This document shows, piece by piece, positions 7,295-53,219 of a DNA stretch of 64,000 bases. The first letter of the stretch is position 1; the number at the start of each line of letters is the position of its first letter. The stretch covers positions 6,944,001 to 7,008,000 of the forward strand of contig NZ_CP011125.1 in the NCBI RefSeq assembly GCF_000737325.1, written 5' to 3'. The position numbers were made by a program, and so were the translations under genes. Source of the DNA: Sandaracinus amylolyticus (GTDB taxonomy: Bacteria; Myxococcota_A; Polyangia; Polyangiales; Sandaracinaceae). The notes under the pieces were generated by a model. It saw only the letters and a program-made list of their open reading frames with translations. It had not been told where the DNA came from and searched no databases.

Positions 7295-8910
7295 GCTCGG
7301 CGGAGCGAGCCGATCCGCGCGCGGTCGCGCGCGACGCCGCGAAGGTCCTGCGCGACCTGCGCCGGCTCGGCTCGCTCTTGCGCATCAAGACCAAGGCGAA
7401 CGGCATCGTCACGTTCGACTACTCGAAGTGGCACCCCGAGCAGCGCGCGTTCCAGCGCGACCGCACCGGGCGCGACGTGATCCTCAAGGCGCGCCAGGTC
7501 GGCTTCACCACCGAGGAGCTCGGCCGCGACGTGCAGTACGCCCGCACGCACGAGGGCGTGCAGGTGCTCATCGTCTCGCAGGACGCCGAGCTCGCCGAGG
7601 TGCTCTTCCAGGCGGCGCACCTGATGGTGCGCGGGCTCGTCGAGCTCGGGCTCTGCCCGAAGCCGAAGTACTCGACGCGCCGCGAGATCGTGTTCTCCGA
7701 CAACCACTCGGCGATCCGCGTTGTCGAGGCGGGCAGCACGGAGAAGAGCGCCGACAACAAGGGGCGGTCGGGGACCATCAACCGACTGCACGCCACCGAG
7801 GTCGCGTTCTGGGGCGCGGCGCAGAACACGATGACGGCGCTCCTCGCTGCCGTGCCCGAGAGCGGCGAGGTCGTGATCGAGTCGACCGCGAACGGGTCGC
7901 AGGGGCTCTTCTACGAGCTGTGCACCACGGCCCTCGCGGGCGGCGGTGAGTACAAGCTCCACTTCTACCCGTGGCACATGCACCCGACCTATCGGCGCGC
8001 GGTGCCGGCGGACTTCGATCTGCGACCGCGCGACCGGTGGGAAGAGCGCCTGCGCGCGGCGGGGTGCGACGACGAGCAGATCGCGTGGTGGCGCTCGCTC
8101 GTCGACAACCCCGCGCGCGGCGGGCTCGAGCGCGTGCTGCAGGAGTACCCCGTCGATCCGCAGTCGTGCTTCCGCTCGCCGGGAGGCGCGTACCTCCCGA
8201 CCGAGTGCGCCGACTGGCTCGGCGAGCAGGTGCGGAAGCCGCTCGCCCTCGAGACGATCGAGGTCACGTCGGGCGGCGCGAGCCGCAAGCTCGGCGAGCT
8301 CGTCGTCTACGAGCAGCCCGTGCCGGGCGGCAGCTACATCGCGGCCGCGGACGTCGCCGAGGGCATCGGCAAGGACGCGAGCACGATCGACGTGAGCGAG
8401 TGGCGCACGGGGCGCACGGTCGCGACGTTCGCGAGCGACACGATCGAAGCGGGCGATCACGGGCTCGCGCTCGCGTGGGTCGCCACGAAGTACAACGGCG
8501 CGCTCGTCGCGCCCGAGCGCAACAAGGACGGCGCCGCCGTGCTCCGCGTGCTCACGCGCGAGGAGAGCTCGGTCACGCCCTACCCGCGCATCTACACGCA
8601 CGACGACGGGCGCCTCGGCTGGCCGACCACGCCCGCGACGCGGCCCGTCCTCTTCGACGACTCGCGCCGCGCGATCGAGGAGCGGTGCTGGCTCACGCCG
8701 GACGCGCGCACCGCGGCCGAGGCCCGCACGTTGGTGAAGGTCGACGGCAAGCCCGTCGCGCGCGGCAAGGGCACCGCGGGCGGCGCGAAGGACGACGCGT
8801 GGGTCGCGAAGGCGATCGGCTGGCAGGTGCGCCAGCGCGCGAGCGACGAGGCCGGGACGGTCGAGACGGGTGCGACTCGCGAGACGTCGTCGCTGCAGGG
8901 CTACTGGTGA
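7291..8910 (+). CDS. terL: Terminase large subunit (ATPase-nuclease)
   Basis: 539 aa. The ATPase half has a Walker A variant KARQVGFTT (66-74), the phage-terminase form of this loop, and an acidic motif in the HATEVAFWG segment near residue 170. The C-terminal RNase H-like nuclease begins at AAADVAEG (Asp near 353). A conserved NGSQGLFYEL segment lies between the two. It pumps and cuts phage DNA at the portal. It overlaps terS by four bases. Confidence 0.9.
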   Translation: MSSAERADPRAVARDAAKVLRDLRRLGSLLRIKTKANGIVTFDYSKWHPEQRAFQRDRTGRDVILKARQVGFTTEELGRDVQYARTHEGVQVLIVSQDAELAEVLFQAAHLMVRGLVELGLCPKPKYSTRREIVFSDNHSAIRVVEAGSTEKSADNKGRSGTINRLHATEVAFWGAAQNTMTALLAAVPESGEVVIESTANGSQGLFYELCTTALAGGGEYKLHFYPWHMHPTYRRAVPADFDLRPRDRWEERLRAAGCDDEQIAWWRSLVDNPARGGLERVLQEYPVDPQSCFRSPGGAYLPTECADWLGEQVRKPLALETIEVTSGGASRKLGELVVYEQPVPGGSYIAAADVAEGIGKDASTIDVSEWRTGRTVATFASDTIEAGDHGLALAWVATKYNGALVAPERNKDGAAVLRVLTREESSVTPYPRIYTHDDGRLGWPTTPATRPVLFDDSRRAIEERCWLTPDARTAAEARTLVKVDGKPVARGKGTAGGAKDDAWVAKAIGWQVRQRASDEAGTVETGATRETSSLQGYW

Positions 8911-8923
8911 GCGGAGGATGGGC

Positions 8924-9928
8924 ATGGACGAGAAGCGGCTGAGCGAGATCGAGTGGCAGGCGCGCGAGTACGAAGGGCGCAGGCACGAGGGAAGCGCGAT
9001 GCGCGACGCGGCCATCGAGCTCGTCGCCGAGGTGCGACAGCTGCAGCTCACGCTCGCCGGCATCGCGAACCACCTACGCACGTGGGCGACGACGAGCGCC
9101 GCGGCAGCGGAGGAGGACAACGACGGCATCCAGGCGTACACGCGCCGTGATGTGCACCGCTGCCGCGCCGCGACGGTGGACGATGCGGCGTCGTTCGTGG
9201 AGACGCGCATGCGCGCCCTCGGTCTACCGCTCCCGTTTCCTCACGCGTCGGCGCACTTCGTCGAGACTCGCGCGCACCACGATCCCGCCGTCCGCACCGA
9301 GCTCGAGCGCAACGTCGACTTCGACGCGGACGGCGGTGAGTCGGTCGCTCCCGCAGCTCCCGCACCGGAGGGGAACGACGCCCGGCTCGGCGCGGACGCC
9401 GACACCGCACGCGTCGCAGACGTAGCCGTCGGGCTCCCCCACGAGCAGACCGTGGCACGCGGGCCGGAGCGCGTCGACGAGGAGCGGCCCGCGTTCGTGC
9501 CGATGGCGAGGCTCGTCGAGAACGCGATCCCGAGCCCGCCCGGCGAGATGGCTGTGCAGCTCATGCGCGCCGTCGCGCTGCACGGACCGCTGACGCGCGT
9601 CGCGCTCGAAGCGTGGCACATCGAGGCCCAGGGCGATCAGCGGCTCACCGTCGCGTGGCTCCTCGCGCGCGGCTTCCTCGAGGAGCACGCGGGGCGCGTC
9701 GACCTGCGCGGGCTCGCGGGCAAGACGCGGCCTGTGATGAGCGACGCCGAGCGGCACGCGCGCGCCGACGCGGTCGAGAGCGCGGTCCGCGCCGCGATGA
9801 TCGCGCTGAGCGCGGCGCGTCGACCGAGCGCGGCGCTCGGCACGCTCGGCGACCTGCTGCGCGAGGGCGTCCGCGGGATCGAGGCTGCGCGGCGCGCCGA
9901 CGAGGCGAAGCGGAAGGGGCGGCCGTGA
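8924..9928 (+). CDS. Hypothetical phage protein
   Basis: 334 aa from ATG 8924. GGAGG at 8913-8917 sits six bases away, whereas the ATG at 8918 directly abuts it. The N-terminal ~95 residues (ELVAEVRQLQLTLAGIANHL) are helical, and the C-terminal third (MRAVALHGPLTRVALEAW and an acidic/basic helix) looks like a folded domain. The middle, about 9224-9480, is Ala/Asp/Pro-rich and has a convincing zinc-ribbon frame on the opposite strand. Function unknown. Confidence 0.6.
   Translation: MDEKRLSEIEWQAREYEGRRHEGSAMRDAAIELVAEVRQLQLTLAGIANHLRTWATTSAAAAEEDNDGIQAYTRRDVHRCRAATVDDAASFVETRMRALGLPLPFPHASAHFVETRAHHDPAVRTELERNVDFDADGGESVAPAAPAPEGNDARLGADADTARVADVAVGLPHEQTVARGPERVDEERPAFVPMARLVENAIPSPPGEMAVQLMRAVALHGPLTRVALEAWHIEAQGDQRLTVAWLLARGFLEEHAGRVDLRGLAGKTRPVMSDAERHARADAVESAVRAAMIALSAARRPSAALGTLGDLLREGVRGIEAARRADEAKRKGRP
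9224..9442 (-). other. Antisense zinc-ribbon-like ORF (72 codons from GTG)
   Basis: Read on the minus strand from a GTG at 9442, this encodes a CxxC-14 residues-CxxC zinc ribbon (CDAC ... CGSC) followed by SDRLTAVRVEVDVALELGADG. That is a much more protein-like sequence than most shadow frames here. No ribosome binding site is visible, and it lies wholly within the + strand gene at 8924-9928. It may be a real small gene, a remnant inserted in reverse, or chance. Confidence 0.3.
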
Positions 9929-48208: not shown

Positions 48209-49231
48209 CTACGCCAGCAGCCGCGAGATCACCAGCTCGATCACGAACGCCATCGCCGCGCTCAGCGGGAGCGTCAGCACCCACGCGATCACGATGTTCG
48301 TCGCGACGCCCCAGCGCACCGCGCTGATCCGGTTGCTCGCGCCGACGCCCATGATGCACGCGTTGATCACGTGCGTGGTCGAGACCGGCACGCCCGCGTG
48401 GCTCGCGACGAGGATCGTCGCCGCGCCCGCCGTCTCCGCCGCGAAGCCCTGCAGCGGCGAGATGCGGATGATCTTCGTGCCCATCGTCTTGATGATGCGG
48501 CGCCCGCCCGCGGCGGTGCCGAGCGCGATCGCGGTCGCGCACGTGTAGATCACCCAGCGCGGCACCTCGTCGCCCACCGGCATCATCCACTCGGGCACGC
48601 CGGCGCCGCCGTTCGCGACGAACGCGACGAGCGCGAGCGTGATGATGCCCATCGCCTTCTGCGCGTCGTTCGAGCCGTGCGAGAACGCCATCATGCACGC
48701 GCTCACGAGCTGCAGGCGCCGCGACGCGCGGTGCACCGTGCCCGGCCGCGCGCGCCGCACGACCCAGAGCAGCGCGACCATCAGGAAGAACGCGGCGACG
48801 AACCCGAGCGTCGGCGAGACGACCAGTGGGACGAGCACCTTCTTCACCAGCGTCGCCCAGTGGAACGCGCCGGCGCCCGCGTGCGCGACGACCGCGCCCG
48901 CGAGCCCGCCGATCAGCGCGTGCGAGCTCGACGACGGGATGCCGTACCACCACGTGATCAGGTTCCACGCCGACGCGCCGAGCAGCGCGCTGAGCACGAC
49001 GGTCTGATCGACGATCTCGGCGTCGGCGAAGCCGGTCGCGATCGTGGTCGCGACCGCGGTGCCGGTGGTCGCGCCGACGAAGTTGAAGATCGCCGCGATG
49101 ATCACCGCGGTGCGGAGCGGGAGCACGCCGGTCGAGACGACCGTCGCGATCGCGTTCGCGGCGTCGTGGAAGCCGTTGATGTAGTCGAAGACGACGGCCG
49201 CGACGACGACCGCGATCAGCAGGCTAACCAT
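48209..49231 (-). CDS. pit: PiT-family inorganic phosphate transporter
   Basis: 340 aa, about ten membrane helices. The family signature appears in each half: FDYINGFHDAANAIATVVST with the GANDxAN-like motif, and FSHGSNDAQKAMGII. The segment GIPSSSSHALIGGL and its repeat GVPVSTTHVI complete the PiT pattern. It takes up phosphate, probably with protons or sodium. It follows the PhoU-like gene on the same strand by five bases. Confidence 0.93.
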   Translation of the reverse strand: MVSLLIAVVVAAVVFDYINGFHDAANAIATVVSTGVLPLRTAVIIAAIFNFVGATTGTAVATTIATGFADAEIVDQTVVLSALLGASAWNLITWWYGIPSSSSHALIGGLAGAVVAHAGAGAFHWATLVKKVLVPLVVSPTLGFVAAFFLMVALLWVVRRARPGTVHRASRRLQLVSACMMAFSHGSNDAQKAMGIITLALVAFVANGGAGVPEWMMPVGDEVPRWVIYTCATAIALGTAAGGRRIIKTMGTKIIRISPLQGFAAETAGAATILVASHAGVPVSTTHVINACIMGVGASNRISAVRWGVATNIVIAWVLTLPLSAAMAFVIELVISRLLA

Positions 49232-49236
49232 GCTCG

Positions 49237-49875
49237 CTAACCATGTTTGACGGCGAGGTTCGCGAGCGTGTGCGCGACGCGCTCGCAGCGATCGATCGCG
49301 TGCTCGAGATCCTCGAGCACCTCCTTCTCGCGGAGGATCTCCTTCGCGTCGACGCCCTCGTCGTGGAAGAGGCGCGAGAGCTCCTGGCGGAAGATGCGGT
49401 CGGCGTCCTTCTCGAGCTGGCGGATGGTGCGGCTCGCCGTCATCAGCGCCGCGTAGTCGTGCTTGCCGAGGCGCGGCAGCGCGGTCTCGAGCACCTCGGT
49501 GCACTGGATGAGCACCGCGATCAGCTTCTTCATCGGCTCGGTCGGCGTGGACACGCCGAAGAGCAGGCACGCGCGGGTCGCGCTGTTCGTGAGATCGAGC
49601 ACGTCGTCGAGCTCCGACGAGAGGTGCTGCAGATCCTCGCGATCGATCGGCGTGACGAACGTGCGTTCCAGCGCTTCCTCGAGCTCGTGGACGACCTTGT
49701 CGCCCTCGTGCTCGCAGATCTGCACGGCGGATTGGACGTCCTCGATGCGTTTGCCGTTCGCGAACTCGCCGAGGGCGCGAGCGCCCTTGTGCGCGGCGGC
49801 GGCCTGCCGCTCGAGGAACTCGAAGAAGTGCTGCTCGCGAGGGATCAGCCAGCGAACGAGGTCTTGGAGCGCCAT
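49237..49875 (-). CDS. PhoU-like DUF47 protein, Pit accessory
   Basis: 212 aa, all-helical. Patterns such as ICEHEGDKVVHELEEALERTF and EKEVLEDLEHAIDRCERVAH fit DUF47 (TIGR00153) proteins, which resemble PhoU and bind metals with conserved Glu/Asp clusters. The gene lies immediately upstream of pit, the usual arrangement, and probably regulates transport. Confidence 0.9.
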   Translation of the reverse strand: MALQDLVRWLIPREQHFFEFLERQAAAAHKGARALGEFANGKRIEDVQSAVQICEHEGDKVVHELEEALERTFVTPIDREDLQHLSSELDDVLDLTNSATRACLLFGVSTPTEPMKKLIAVLIQCTEVLETALPRLGKHDYAALMTASRTIRQLEKDADRIFRQELSRLFHDEGVDAKEILREKEVLEDLEHAIDRCERVAHTLANLAVKHG

Positions 49876-49964
49876 CGCGGGCGCCGTTTACGCGGCACGA
49901 GGTGCGGGCGTCAAGGCGATCGGGCAATTGCCCTCCGCGAGCCGCTCGGGTAGAGGCCACGTCG

Positions 49965-50168
49965 ATGAGCGAGAGCGCGTTCCTGATGATGCTGGTCCTC
50001 GCGCCCGCGGGCATCGCGATCGTCTCGCTCGCGCTCGCGGTGTACCTGTTCTCGCAGGCGCGCCACACCGACGGGGTCAAACCGACGCTGTTCCGCGTGA
50101 TCGCGATCTTGCTGACGCTCGTCGGGCTCGGCATCGGCGCGTGCTACGCGACGCTCTTCGTCGGGTGA
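49965..50168 (+). CDS. Small two-helix membrane protein
   Basis: 67 aa with two membrane segments, APAGIAIVSLALAVYLF and FRVIAILLTLVGLGIGA, joined by a short polar loop. It is four bases upstream of the radical SAM gene, thus the first gene of a three-gene operon concerned with lipid-like chemistry. Likely a membrane partner or anchor; no family is recognised. Confidence 0.7.
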   Translation: MSESAFLMMLVLAPAGIAIVSLALAVYLFSQARHTDGVKPTLFRVIAILLTLVGLGIGACYATLFVG

Positions 50169-50172
50169 TCAC

Positions 50173-51636
50173 GTGGCGCACCGAGCCCGCGACTACCTCT
50201 TCTACTCCGCGACGCGCGCGCTCTGCGGGACGTGCCTGCGCGTGGTCGACGCGAAGGAGCTCATCGAGGGCGACCGCGTGTGGCTCTGGAAGCGGTGCCC
50301 GGAGCACGGCATCCAGCGCGTGCTGCTCTCGGACGACGCCGCGTACTTCCGGCGCGGGCGCGAGGTGTTCCTGAAGCCGCCCGAGCAGGTGGCTCGCTAC
50401 AACACCCCGCACGAGCACGGCTGCCCGTACGACTGCGGCATCTGCCCCGATCACGAGCAGCACGGGTGCGTCTCGATCCTCGAGATCACCGATCACTGCA
50501 ACCTGCGCTGTCCGACGTGCTACGCGAGCAGCGGTCCGGAGCGGCTCGCGCATCGTCCGCTCGACGTGATCGAGCGGATGCTCGACCGCATCGTCGCGAA
50601 CGAGACCGAGCCCGACGTGCTGCAGGTCTCGGGCGGCGAGCCGACGACGCACCCCGACTTCTTCGCGGTGCTCGACGCGTGCCGCAGGCGGCCCGTGCGG
50701 CACCTGATGCTGAACACGAACGGCATCCGGATCGCGAAGGAGGACGGGTTCGCGGAGCGGCTCGCGAGCTACGCGCCGCGCTTCGAGGTGTACCTGCAGC
50801 TCGACTCGCTGCGCAGGAGCGCGCACCTCGATCTGCGCGGCGCGGACCTGCGCGCGATCCGCGAGCGCGCGCTGGAAAAGCTCGACGCGCTGAACCTCTC
50901 GACCACGCTCGTCTGCACGGTGAAGCGCGGCGTCAACGACGACGAGCTCGGCGATCTGCTGCGCTTCGCGTCGCAGCACCGCGCGGTGCGCGGCGTGACG
51001 TTCCAGCCGGTGCAGGACGCGGGGCGCAACGAGACGTTCGATCCCGGCGAGCACCGGCTCACGCTCTCCGAGGTGCGGCGGCGCATCACCGAGCAGTGCG
51101 ATCTCTTCGCGCCCGAGGATCTGCTGCCGGTGCCGTGTCACCCCGAGTGCCTCGCGATGGCGTACGGGATCAAGAGCGAGGACGGCACGCGCATCACGCC
51201 GCTGACGCGCTACGTCGATCCGCGCGTCCTGCTCGACGCGGGCAGGAACACGATCGTGTACGAGGGCGATCGCGACCTGACGCGCGCGATCTTCTCGACG
51301 TTCAGCACGGCGCACGGGCCGGAGTCGGCGGCGGGGTCGCTGCACGACCTGCTCTGCTGCCTGCCGCGCGTCGAGGCGCTGCCTTCGCTCGGCTACGACC
51401 GCGTGTTCCGCGTGATCATCATGCAGTTCCTCGATCGGCACTCGATGGACCTGCGGAGCGTGCGCAAGAGCTGCGTCCACATCGCGCATCCCGATGGAAC
51501 GCGCGTGATGCCGTTCGACACGTACAACGTGCTCTATCGCGATCACCTCGAGGCCGAGGTGCTCGCGCCGCTGCGCGCTGCCGTCGGCGGACAGGGCGTG
51601 CCGAGCGCGCGCAAGCACGCGCTGCGGACGGTCTGA
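50173..51636 (+). CDS. Radical SAM protein of the tetraether-synthase (MJ0619/Tes) family
   Basis: 487 aa, GTG start. The radical SAM cluster motif is CNLRCPTC (Cys109, 113, 116). Just before it lies a second CPYDCGIC (Cys84, 88, 91) plus Cys99, and an N-terminal CGTC with CPEHG, the pattern of MJ0619-type (COG1964) proteins with auxiliary clusters. The archaeal member joins lipid chains by C-C bonds; bacterial members are suspected in membrane-spanning lipid synthesis. Downstream is an Lgt-like gene. Substrate here is inferred, not shown. Confidence 0.82.
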   Translation: MAHRARDYLFYSATRALCGTCLRVVDAKELIEGDRVWLWKRCPEHGIQRVLLSDDAAYFRRGREVFLKPPEQVARYNTPHEHGCPYDCGICPDHEQHGCVSILEITDHCNLRCPTCYASSGPERLAHRPLDVIERMLDRIVANETEPDVLQVSGGEPTTHPDFFAVLDACRRRPVRHLMLNTNGIRIAKEDGFAERLASYAPRFEVYLQLDSLRRSAHLDLRGADLRAIRERALEKLDALNLSTTLVCTVKRGVNDDELGDLLRFASQHRAVRGVTFQPVQDAGRNETFDPGEHRLTLSEVRRRITEQCDLFAPEDLLPVPCHPECLAMAYGIKSEDGTRITPLTRYVDPRVLLDAGRNTIVYEGDRDLTRAIFSTFSTAHGPESAAGSLHDLLCCLPRVEALPSLGYDRVFRVIIMQFLDRHSMDLRSVRKSCVHIAHPDGTRVMPFDTYNVLYRDHLEAEVLAPLRAAVGGQGVPSARKHALRTV

Positions 51637-51643
51637 CGCGACG

Positions 51644-52357
51644 ATGCTCTACGGCGCCTTCGTCGCGCTGGGGATCGTCGCGGGGCTCGCGGCGACGAGG
51701 CACGCACCGCCCGACGGCATCCCCGCGCCGGTCGCGAAGCGCGTGAAGGCGTGCGCGCTGATCGGCGCGGTGATCGGCGCGCACCTCTTCGAGCTGCCGG
51801 CGGACCTCTTCGGGTGGGCGGCGCCGGTGCCCGGGCACGAGGGCTCGCCGGTGCTCGGGCGCACGGTGCTCGGCGGGATCCTCGGCGGATGGGCGGGCGT
51901 GGAGCTCGCGAAGGCGAGCGTCGGGTTCCGCGGCGCGACGGGCGATCGGTTCGCGGCGCCGCTCGCGATCGCGCTGGCGTTCGGACGGCTGGGCTGCGTG
52001 ACGACCGGGTGCTGCCCGGGACGCGCGATCGAGCCCGGCTCGCCGTGGGCGGCGCTGTCGATCGTGCATGCAGATCCGCCGCGCTTCCCGGCGACGCTCG
52101 TGGAGGCGTACTTCCACGCGGGCGCCGCGCTCGCGCTGGTGCTCGCGGCGCGCGCGCAGTGGCTCCCGGGACGACGGCTCGCGGTCTATCTCGCGGCGCT
52201 CGCGGTGCTGCGGTTCGTGCTCGAGCGCTGGCGCGACAACCCGGAGGTGCTCGGCGGGCTGACGTACTACCAGTGGCTCTGCGTGCCGCTGTTCGTGATC
52301 TCGGTGGGCACGATCGTCGCGCGCAGCCGCGCGCCGCGGGCTAACGACGCGCGCTGA
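51644..52357 (+). CDS. Lgt-like membrane protein (diacylglyceryl transferase family)
   Basis: 237 aa, about six membrane helices. The motif GRTVLGGILGGWAGVELAK corresponds to the HGGxxGG region of Lgt, and AFGRLGCVTTGCCPGR to the FxRxGNxxNGE region, with a distinctive double cysteine. It lacks several residues essential in true Lgt, so it may act on lipid rather than on lipoprotein. It lies seven bases after the radical SAM gene. Confidence 0.78.
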   Translation: MLYGAFVALGIVAGLAATRHAPPDGIPAPVAKRVKACALIGAVIGAHLFELPADLFGWAAPVPGHEGSPVLGRTVLGGILGGWAGVELAKASVGFRGATGDRFAAPLAIALAFGRLGCVTTGCCPGRAIEPGSPWAALSIVHADPPRFPATLVEAYFHAGAALALVLAARAQWLPGRRLAVYLAALAVLRFVLERWRDNPEVLGGLTYYQWLCVPLFVISVGTIVARSRAPRANDAR

Positions 52358-53219
52358 GCGTCTCGAGCAGGAAGTCGCGGAAGACCGCGACACGTCGCGG
52401 GACGTAGCGCGCGCTCGGATACACGAGGTGGAACGGCGCACCGGGCGCGCCGTAGCGCGGTAGGACGCGCACGACGTCGGCGCCGGTGATGCCGTCGAAC
52501 GCGGGCAAGAGGCCGATGCCCGCGCCCGCCGCGACCGCCTGGTGCGCGAACGAGAAGTCGTCGGCGTTCACCACGCCGCGGACCTCGACGCTCTCCTCTC
52601 CGCGCGGTCCGGTGAGGGTCCACGTCGCGCGGCCGCGCACGCCGCGGAAGAGCACGCAGCGATGCTGCGCGAGCTCGGCGACGCGCTTCGGCGTGCCGTT
52701 CGCGTCGAGGTACGCGCGCGACGCGACGAGCGCGAAGTCGACGCGCGGCAGGCGGCGCGCGACCAGCGTGTCGTCGCGGATCGGGCCGGCGCGCAGCGCG
52801 AGATCGATGCCCTCTTCGCCGAGATCGACGACGCGACCGGTGAGCACGACGTCGACGAGCACGTCGGGGTGCTGCGCGACGAACGCGCCGACCACCGGCG
52901 CGAGCAGCCAGACGCCCGCGTCGACCGCGGTGGTGACGCGGATCGGGCCACGGAGCGTGGCCTCGAGATCGACGACCGCCTCGCGCGCCTCGGAGAGCGC
53001 GGCGAGGCCGCGCGAGGCGCGCTCGTAGAACGCGGCGCCGGCCTCGGTGAGCGCGACGCTGCGGGTGGAGCGGCGAAGCAGGCGCGCGCCGAGCTCCTGC
53101 TCGAGCAGCGCGACCGCGCGGCTCACCGAGGACTTGGGGAGATCGAGCGCGCGCGCGGCGGCGGTGAAGCCACGCTCGTCGACGACCTTCACGAAGATGG
53201 CGGCGCGGTGGAGATCCAT
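52341..53219 (-). CDS. LysR-family transcriptional regulator
   Basis: 292 aa. The winged HTH (TAAARALDLPKSSVSRAVAL) occupies residues 19-38 and is followed by the linker helix and LRRSTRSVALTEAG. The effector domain begins near residue 90 (GPIRVTTAVDAGVWLLAPVV). It is divergent from the YceI gene and probably regulates it, through the palindrome at 53232-53248. Its 3' end overlaps the Lgt-like gene convergently. Confidence 0.92.
   Translation of the reverse strand: MDLHRAAIFVKVVDERGFTAAARALDLPKSSVSRAVALLEQELGARLLRRSTRSVALTEAGAAFYERASRGLAALSEAREAVVDLEATLRGPIRVTTAVDAGVWLLAPVVGAFVAQHPDVLVDVVLTGRVVDLGEEGIDLALRAGPIRDDTLVARRLPRVDFALVASRAYLDANGTPKRVAELAQHRCVLFRGVRGRATWTLTGPRGEESVEVRGVVNADDFSFAHQAVAAGAGIGLLPAFDGITGADVVRVLPRYGAPGAPFHLVYPSARYVPRRVAVFRDFLLETLSARR

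Follow-up and report, generated by a model that had tools for sequence, protein, structure and literature searches.

Within a 64,000-nucleotide stretch of the Sandaracinus amylolyticus genome, hereafter the window, we characterized a three-gene unit encoding a small membrane protein, a radical SAM (rSAM) protein with the fold of Tes (GDGT-MAS), the archaeal tetraether synthase that joins lipid tails, and a membrane protein of the Lgt family. The unit is read here, tentatively and with somewhat less than even confidence, as a dedicated module in which the Lgt-like enzyme would lipidate a cysteine at the end of a membrane helix and the rSAM enzyme would modify the lipid tail. Nearly the same gene set was found in bacteria of several phyla, and this recurrence suggests a route to lipid-modified membrane proteins that has not been described. 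This reading is supported by the linkage of the Lgt-like and rSAM genes across loci, a second set in the same genome, Cys-ended small proteins and the charge pattern around their helices, catalytic residues that are kept, and the Tes fold. What the computation shows is that the three genes form a unit, that this unit recurs, which fold is predicted, which residues are retained or lost, how charge is distributed around the helix, and that one clade has exchanged its partner.

Unless marked as own-genome (C1) or locus (L) coordinates, positions are those of the window. The unit spans 49965-52357 on the forward strand and consists of the small two-helix membrane protein (49965..50168, 67 aa, ATG start), the rSAM protein (50173..51636, 487 aa, GTG start) and the Lgt-family protein (51644..52357, 237 aa, ATG start), separated by gaps of 4 and 7 bases. 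The initial annotation had proposed these three genes, and they were borne out by the open reading frames (ORFs), the Pfam and PDB matches, and the relatives found beside other cassettes.

The rSAM protein carries the motifs CGTC (residues 18-21), CPEHG (42-46), CPYDCGIC (84-91) and CNLRCPTC (109-116), all of which had been quoted in the initial annotation and were found in place, as was GCVTTGCC in the Lgt-like protein. The Pfam families PF04055 (Radical_SAM, 78.6 bits) and PF23545 (HMPTM zinc ribbon, 54 bits) were matched above their curated cut-offs, and the Pfam scan reported no SPASM or other peptide-maturase domain. The best match among solved structures was GDGT-MAS/Tes (PDB 7tol, E 3.6e-62). 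A model built from a 20-row alignment (predicted local distance difference test, pLDDT, 82.4; predicted template modelling score, pTM, 0.85) was compared with known structures, and this predicted model matched 7tol/7tom in Foldseek with a TM-score of 0.77 (E 1.4e-37) and 7tom in VIA-align with a Z of 45.2 over 418 residues (2.5 A, 30% identity), whereas the best entry outside Tes reached a Z of only 19.5. Against NCBIfam, the first-ranking model was TrsS (NF045646; 301.5 bits over residues 13-454) and the second was Tes (NF045702; 252.5 bits), and neither curated cut-off (490 and 450, respectively) was reached; by these cut-offs the protein is not simply Tes or TrsS. Because the whole-length match to 7tol/7tom is accompanied by scores below both cut-offs, the protein, as modelled, is a whole Tes fold that belongs to neither curated family. 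The tetraether-synthase relation claimed earlier thus stands for the fold over the entire rSAM protein and is not supported for Tes itself, since the score is too low and the equivalents of Cys470 and Tyr459 are changed; the profile search it had recommended did return Tes, although only in second place, below cut-off and behind TrsS.

Residues were compared in an alignment of 77 bacterial rows, comprising the window protein, its paralogue and 75 of the 80 loci described below (L077, L079, L080, L083 and L084 were dropped). Alignment with Tes located a rubredoxin-type site (C18, C21, C42, H45; CX2C..CX2H), an N-terminal auxiliary cluster (C84, C88, C91; CX3CX2C) and the radical SAM cluster (C109, C113, C116; CX3CX2C), whose residues are kept in 76 or 77 of the 77 rows. 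The C-terminal auxiliary region (C322, C326, M417, C434, D449) is less uniform. Here the putative ligand positions Cys338, Cys438, Met439, Cys455/Cys456 and Cys470 of Tes correspond to C326, I416, M417, S433/C434 and D449 in the window protein. Cys456 is kept in 76 of 77 rows, and Met439 is matched by Met in 50 rows and Val in 22. At the Cys470 position, Asp (43 rows) and Glu (30) together account for 73 of 77, with Cys in three rows including the own paralogue. An additional cysteine, C322, is invariant, and Tyr459 is replaced by Ile in 68 rows (Ile437 in the window). These columns suggest that Asp or Glu may stand in for one of the candidate Cys ligands of the C-terminal auxiliary cluster. 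In the available sections of PMC9433317, the metal-site ligands of Tes are named, with the labile Met439 the only one given there for the C-terminal cluster, and Tyr459 is described as strictly conserved in 1,000 archaeal Tes homologues, yet not essential for activity.

The Lgt-like protein matched PF01790 (LGT) at 74 bits, exceeding the gathering score of 24.9, and lies below the Lgt equivalog cut-offs of NCBIfam, with 29 bits against the 118.9 of TIGR00544. Invariant residues among 19 aligned relatives include R115, E154, R190, E87, K90 and C118 (window numbering). The first three correspond to R143, E202 and R239 of E. coli Lgt and are kept in 19/19 rows; the PDB chain (5azb) is numbered one above PMC4728403, and E202 and R239 were placed via neighbouring columns. 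His103 of the HGGL motif was lost in all 19 rows, being V, L, I or T (L76 in the window), and Asn146 is replaced by Cys in all 19 (C118), so that the Lgt signature GRLGNFINGELWG is not found in this protein. According to the accessible part of PMC4728403, Arg143 and Arg239 are essential for diacylglyceryl transfer, and the HGGL motif with His103, itself essential, is the proposed binding site of the lipobox peptide. Because the equivalents of both arginines are present and the histidine of the proposed lipobox site is gone, the lipid-donor side of the enzyme looks kept and its acceptor side changed. The earlier statement that the usual Lgt residues are missing is therefore right for His103 and Asn146 and wrong for Arg143, Glu202 and Arg239.

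The genome of S. amylolyticus encodes seven homologues of Lgt, counted from eight matches of which two share a frame. One of these (L091) has a canonical-type GN motif together with the His, which refutes the idea that the window gene is the sole Lgt of the organism, and the six others have GC at that place. The GCVTTGCC motif (residues 117-124) had been pointed out in the window gene. Four more own-genome homologues (L089, L090, L093, L094) have GC...GC or GC...GCC, one of them belonging to the second set, and GC without CC is seen in many of the Lgt-like partners from other phyla; the motif was dropped as a novelty. In the 53-row Lgt alignment it was unreadable in L018 and L083, where the ORFs are long or shifted.

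We assessed the conservation of this neighbourhood by scanning bacterial and archaeal genomes with peptides of the window rSAM protein, which gave 80 loci (37-77% identical) in a sample skewed to near relatives that includes near-duplicates (L037/L039) and two loci apparently of one genome (L019/L111). The closest relatives were Sandaracinaceae and Sandaracinus records, and homologues were also found in Shewanella, Bacillus and Chitinophaga records. By profile search, 53/80 loci from several phyla have an Lgt-like gene no more than 1.4 kb from the rSAM gene and on its strand, two of these matches being weak or partial (L077, 92 bits; L080, 70 bits). The gene lies upstream in most of the 53 and downstream in L010, L012, L014-L018, L083, L085 and L086. 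Eight loci have neither an Lgt-like gene nor the methyltransferase discussed below; six of them are near a contig end (L011, L045, L070, L079, L084, and L013 with a partial opposite-strand Lgt match of 42 bits at that end), and the others are L020 and L087. Identities of the rSAM and Lgt-like proteins correlate over the loci (r 0.89, 48 rows, L018, L025, L077, L081 and L083 being dropped), a value inflated by common descent. It was also noted that L014, L015, L016 and L017, from Myxococcota, carry an FA_hydroxylase-type gene on the reverse strand (about 7775-9040), convergent with the rSAM-Lgt pair.

Two families were sampled on the basis of rSAM homology only, with a similar outcome. In the family of L078 (a Terracidiphilus record), any homologue (E<=1e-40) was found in 13 of 50 genomes and a close one in eight, and in each of the seven newly fetched close loci an Lgt-like gene of the same orientation lies within 1.5 kb, the eighth being L078 itself; in L151 that gene is a fragment at the contig start. 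In the family of L067 (a Chitinophaga record), the homologue occurs in 4 of 78 genomes, with the Lgt-like gene directly upstream in 3/3 newly fetched loci, the fourth being L067. The co-occurrence survey that the initial annotation had called for thus came out in favour of a neighbourhood conserved across phyla. The Myxococcota sample contained a homologue in 10 of 95 genomes, and the nine besides our own gave eleven loci (L106-L116), which are taken up below.

In the window, the second helix of the small protein ends in LGIGAC(60)YATLFVG, and Cys60 (codon 50142-50144) is lipobox-like, preceded by I-G-A and placed 7 residues from the C-terminus. The third gene had been annotated as a membrane protein, and this is upheld by relatives beside the cassettes in L010, L018 and L083, which share the stretch LGIGACY with the window protein. 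The Pfam scans gave no match above cut-off for the window protein, nor for any of the ten small proteins scanned. A Bacteroidota family of small proteins has one Cys and one Gly invariant in 27/27 members, with two to five divergent copies in several loci (the maximum of five in L058), and the Terracidiphilus family shows several small candidates between and around both genes, some with lipobox-like ends judged by eye (LAAC, MSAC, ASSC, LSSC). In the window protein and the Bacteroidota family, the Cys sits at the end of the last helix, close to the C-terminus, and does not close an N-terminal signal peptide as in a lipoprotein; in some of the Terracidiphilus-family candidates it is N-terminal.

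The density of this helix-plus-Cys motif was 0.318 per kb near 60 Lgt cassettes versus 0.038 in the far flanks of the same cassettes. Near 19 methyltransferase cassettes it was 0.051 per kb, with 3/19 positive and two of the three at DUF547 genes. Across 46 loci or sets, with one protein each, Lys and Arg make up 101/816 residues (0.124) before the helix and 10/425 (0.024) after the Cys, the helix and Cys having themselves been selection criteria for these proteins. Judged by this charge count, the orientation would be that of a lipoprotein signal, with the positive side cytoplasmic and the Cys at the periplasmic end. In a set of 71 proteins (48 loci or sets), S or G occupies position -2 in 57, A, T, L, S or V occupies position -1 in 63, and G occupies position +2 in 43. 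The frequent context, F/L/I/H-S/G/A-A/T/S/L/V-C-(L/F/W/Y)-G, deviates from the canonical lipobox, in keeping with the absence of the HGGL histidine, the proposed lipobox-binding residue.

A divergent second set was found in the same genome (C1:7258000-7274000, L105), where genes for an Lgt-like protein and a 63-aa protein with the C-terminal sequence FLTCSGH are grouped with one that has no Pfam match and with a Tes-like rSAM gene. It adjoins genes for a P450-ferredoxin, an ERG2/Sigma1R-like isomerase and an FA_hydroxylase, and S. amylolyticus is reported in the available text of PMC12004948 to make cholesterol. Elsewhere in the Myxococcota, Tes-like rSAM genes stand in twos or threes (L106 7468-12091, L107 3041-10765, L108 2137-5057); these loci were fetched to look for an Lgt link, and the fetched stretches contained no Lgt-like gene. 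In the L106 genome, one rSAM gene contains a single in-frame TGA, which would be consistent with a selenoprotein of the TrsS type.

In 19/80 loci, a methyltransferase takes the place of the Lgt-like gene beside the rSAM gene, and 12 of these 19 also have DUF547. The representative methyltransferase is of the DVU_1556 type (NF045667, 158.5 bits, cut-off 155). An alternative three-gene set, with the rSAM gene followed by those for a DUF547 protein and the methyltransferase, was observed in L022, L024, L027, L028, L031-L033, L038, L042-L044 and L046, and some DUF547 proteins in methyltransferase cassettes have a lipobox-like start. The Lgt-like gene and the methyltransferase co-occur on the same strand in 0/80 loci; in L073 and L088 the opposite strand carries a methyltransferase from the same similarity cluster, about 2 and 1 kb away. 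In a quick-method tree of 78 rows, which has some long branches and labels L151 'none' despite its Lgt-like piece, the methyltransferase loci and L070 form one clade nested in a mostly Lgt-linked main clade. Because of this nesting, the rSAM partner was probably exchanged once, in the methyltransferase clade.

Taken together, these features can be ordered into a two-step scheme. The Lgt-like enzyme would take diacylglyceryl from phosphatidylglycerol via the conserved Arg/Glu/Arg site and place it on the helix-ending Cys of a companion small protein (Cys60 in the window). The Tes-like enzyme, as its fold suggests, would abstract a hydrogen from a tail of phosphatidylglycerol prior to transfer, or of the lipid once it is anchored, and would form a C-C (tail-to-tail) or C-S bond at the C-terminal auxiliary cluster. 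The two chemistries follow from the protein families, and we infer the substrate and the order of the steps. A more daring extension, which we consider a long shot, is a trans-bilayer lipoprotein staple in which the Lgt-like enzyme would anchor diacylglyceryl on the periplasmic Cys and the Tes-like enzyme would weld the anchored tail to an inner-leaflet phospholipid tail mid-membrane. If true, this would be a protein-linked membrane-spanning lipid in ordinary bacteria.

Several observations weigh against protein lipidation with tail modification. The rSAM product does not always need an Lgt-like transferase, because the 19 methyltransferase loci have no adjacent gene of that kind, and 8/10 searched genomes of that clade (Pseudomonadota records) hold solely Lgt homologues with Asn at the Cys118 place (nine matches). 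The remaining two (L028, L046) have one low-scoring GC-type homologue each, probably their ordinary Lgt. No linked Lgt-like gene was found in L020 and L087 despite their long flanks, although both genomes hold an unlinked one (196.6 and 184.8 bits). Among the close Myxococcota loci outside the own genome, it is adjacent on the same strand in just 1/6 (L111); it is convergent in L113, about 3.6 kb off on the other strand in L114, and was not found in L115 or in L112 and L116, both of which begin close to a contig end. The fetched stretches of five loci with more distant rSAM members (L106-L110) likewise contained none. In addition, the Lgt-like enzyme lacks His103, a residue essential in E. coli Lgt, and its fold rests on Pfam because the single-sequence model was poor (pLDDT 48.6) and was left unused. 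The helix-plus-Cys motif was defined after inspection of the sequences, its strict form stands beside just 34/60 Lgt cassettes, some of its 50 hits appear internal or unrelated by eye, and a weak member of the Bacteroidota family (L063 7370-7678) has no Cys. Lastly, the rSAM protein would act from the cytoplasm while the Cys lies outside, so that the lipid tails alone would meet mid-membrane.

The initial annotation had envisaged a free-lipid product, with the rSAM enzyme coupling phospholipid tails into membrane-spanning or macrocyclic lipids and the Lgt-like enzyme moving diacylglyceryl between lipids. The Tes fold over the whole rSAM length and the retained arginines that act on phosphatidylglycerol speak for such a product, but we regard it as doubtful because the rSAM family is patchy, occurring at the low frequencies given above for the Terracidiphilus and Chitinophaga families. 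Iso-diabolic acid is regarded as general in the Terracidiphilus group, which stands against close homologues in only 8/50 genomes of that family, and we know of no membrane-spanning lipids from Shewanella, Bacillus or Chitinophaga. The changes at Tes Cys470 and Tyr459 also argue against a free-lipid product, and it would leave the Cys-ended small proteins and their arrays, which point to protein lipidation, unexplained. Zeng et al. (PMC8941075) proposed bacterial Tes homologues for branched tetraethers, whereas PMC11868695, in its accessible part, calls the activity of such homologues unconfirmed. Overall, free membrane-spanning lipids appear unlikely, and less likely than protein lipidation with tail modification.

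Small, repeated and divergent proteins with a conserved Cys adjoining an rSAM gene would also suit a maturase of the type seen for ribosomally synthesized and post-translationally modified peptides (RiPPs), where the rSAM enzyme would modify the small protein itself, forming for instance a thioether or a C-C bond close to its Cys, and the role of the Lgt-like protein would be to lipidate or hold it. RiPP-lipoprotein hybrids exist, as described in the available text of PMC12636315, but the lack of a SPASM or other peptide-maturase domain in the Pfam scan, a nearest fold that acts on lipids, and a Cys at the end of a membrane helix, on the outer side as judged by charge, make this quite unlikely. 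We give the same low probability to redox or small-molecule chemistry like that of TrsS, a radical SAM (seleno)protein, in which the product would be small and the Lgt-like and small proteins would be membrane anchors. The top NCBIfam rank of TrsS and the one clade paired with a methyltransferase, often with DUF547, favour it; the unreached TrsS cut-off, the Lgt-like pairing across much of the main clade with the methyltransferase clade nested inside (quick tree), and the catalytic arginines, which would be odd in a mere anchor, do not. Slightly less probable still is a structural role for the small membrane protein, as a subunit of the Lgt-like or the rSAM enzyme whose Cys is a ligand or redox residue and no acceptor. 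The presence of just one small-protein gene in each cassette of several Myxococcota loci (L010, L018, L083) and the invariant Cys and Gly in Bacteroidota would agree with a subunit, in contrast to the multiple divergent copies in Bacteroidota loci, the several candidates in the Terracidiphilus family, and the lipobox-like topology and context of the Cys.

The surroundings of the unit were also examined. Both flanking genes lie on the reverse strand, opposite to the unit, namely a PhoU_div/DUF47 gene at 49237-49875 and a LysR gene at 52341-53219 (both by Pfam). The intergenic space between the divergent genes (49876..49964) is, from its position, the putative promoter region of the three-gene unit on the forward strand. 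A transporter-like ORF and the PhoU_div/DUF47 gene (48209-49875, reverse strand) adjoin the cassette and are probably a PiT-type phosphate pair, the PiT label having been given by reading the sequence, without a family search.

The component families are known, and the three-gene combination appears to be undescribed. A search by title and abstract start, with thin coverage of subscription journals, found no publication that appeared to describe linkage of a Tes-like enzyme with Lgt-like and lipobox-like proteins. Bacterial Tes homologues themselves have been counted before, with 456 reported in PMC8941075 and homologues in 281 metagenome-assembled genomes in PMC11868695. Their function is left undefined in the available sections of these two papers and PMC9433317, two of the three considering that they may make branched or membrane-spanning lipids. 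With its conserved partners, one large clade of these homologues would have a different and testable job, protein lipidation, and the partners advise caution in reading a Tes homologue as a sign of tetraether lipids in bacteria. If this is right, it would be a lipoprotein-type pathway equipped with a dedicated transferase and a dedicated tail-modifying enzyme.

Compared with Tes/GDGT-MAS (MJ0619, 7tol/7tom), the window rSAM protein shares the whole fold and the cysteines of the rubredoxin-type, N-terminal and radical SAM clusters. It differs in being bacterial, in scoring below the NCBIfam Tes cut-off, in the changes Cys470 to Asp449 and Tyr459 to Ile437, and in its gene linkage to Lgt-like and small Cys-ended membrane proteins. 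TrsS (NF045646) gives its best NCBIfam score over most of its length, but below cut-off, and the window rSAM gene reads through without a stop and has an Lgt-like partner. The Lgt-like protein resembles Lgt (PF01790; E. coli 5azb) in its Pfam match and its Arg143, Glu202 and Arg239 equivalents, and is unlike it in the loss of His103 (HGGL) and Asn146, in the invariant E87, K90 and C118, and in falling below the equivalog cut-offs. As far as the accessible text of PMC12636315 goes, the DAG-RiPPs (DybA/DybH) similarly unite a metalloenzyme and the lipoprotein pathway in one biosynthesis, although theirs is an MNIO enzyme with a proposed ordinary Lgt, whereas here a dedicated Lgt homologue is joined by a Tes-fold radical SAM enzyme. 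The lipidation predicted for the Skillet-1 Lipocone (PMC12419801) is alike in placing a dedicated enzyme in an operon with an unusual lipobox-like protein; it differs in enzyme superfamily, in having Ser for Cys, and in that no radical SAM partner is seen in the available part of that paper.

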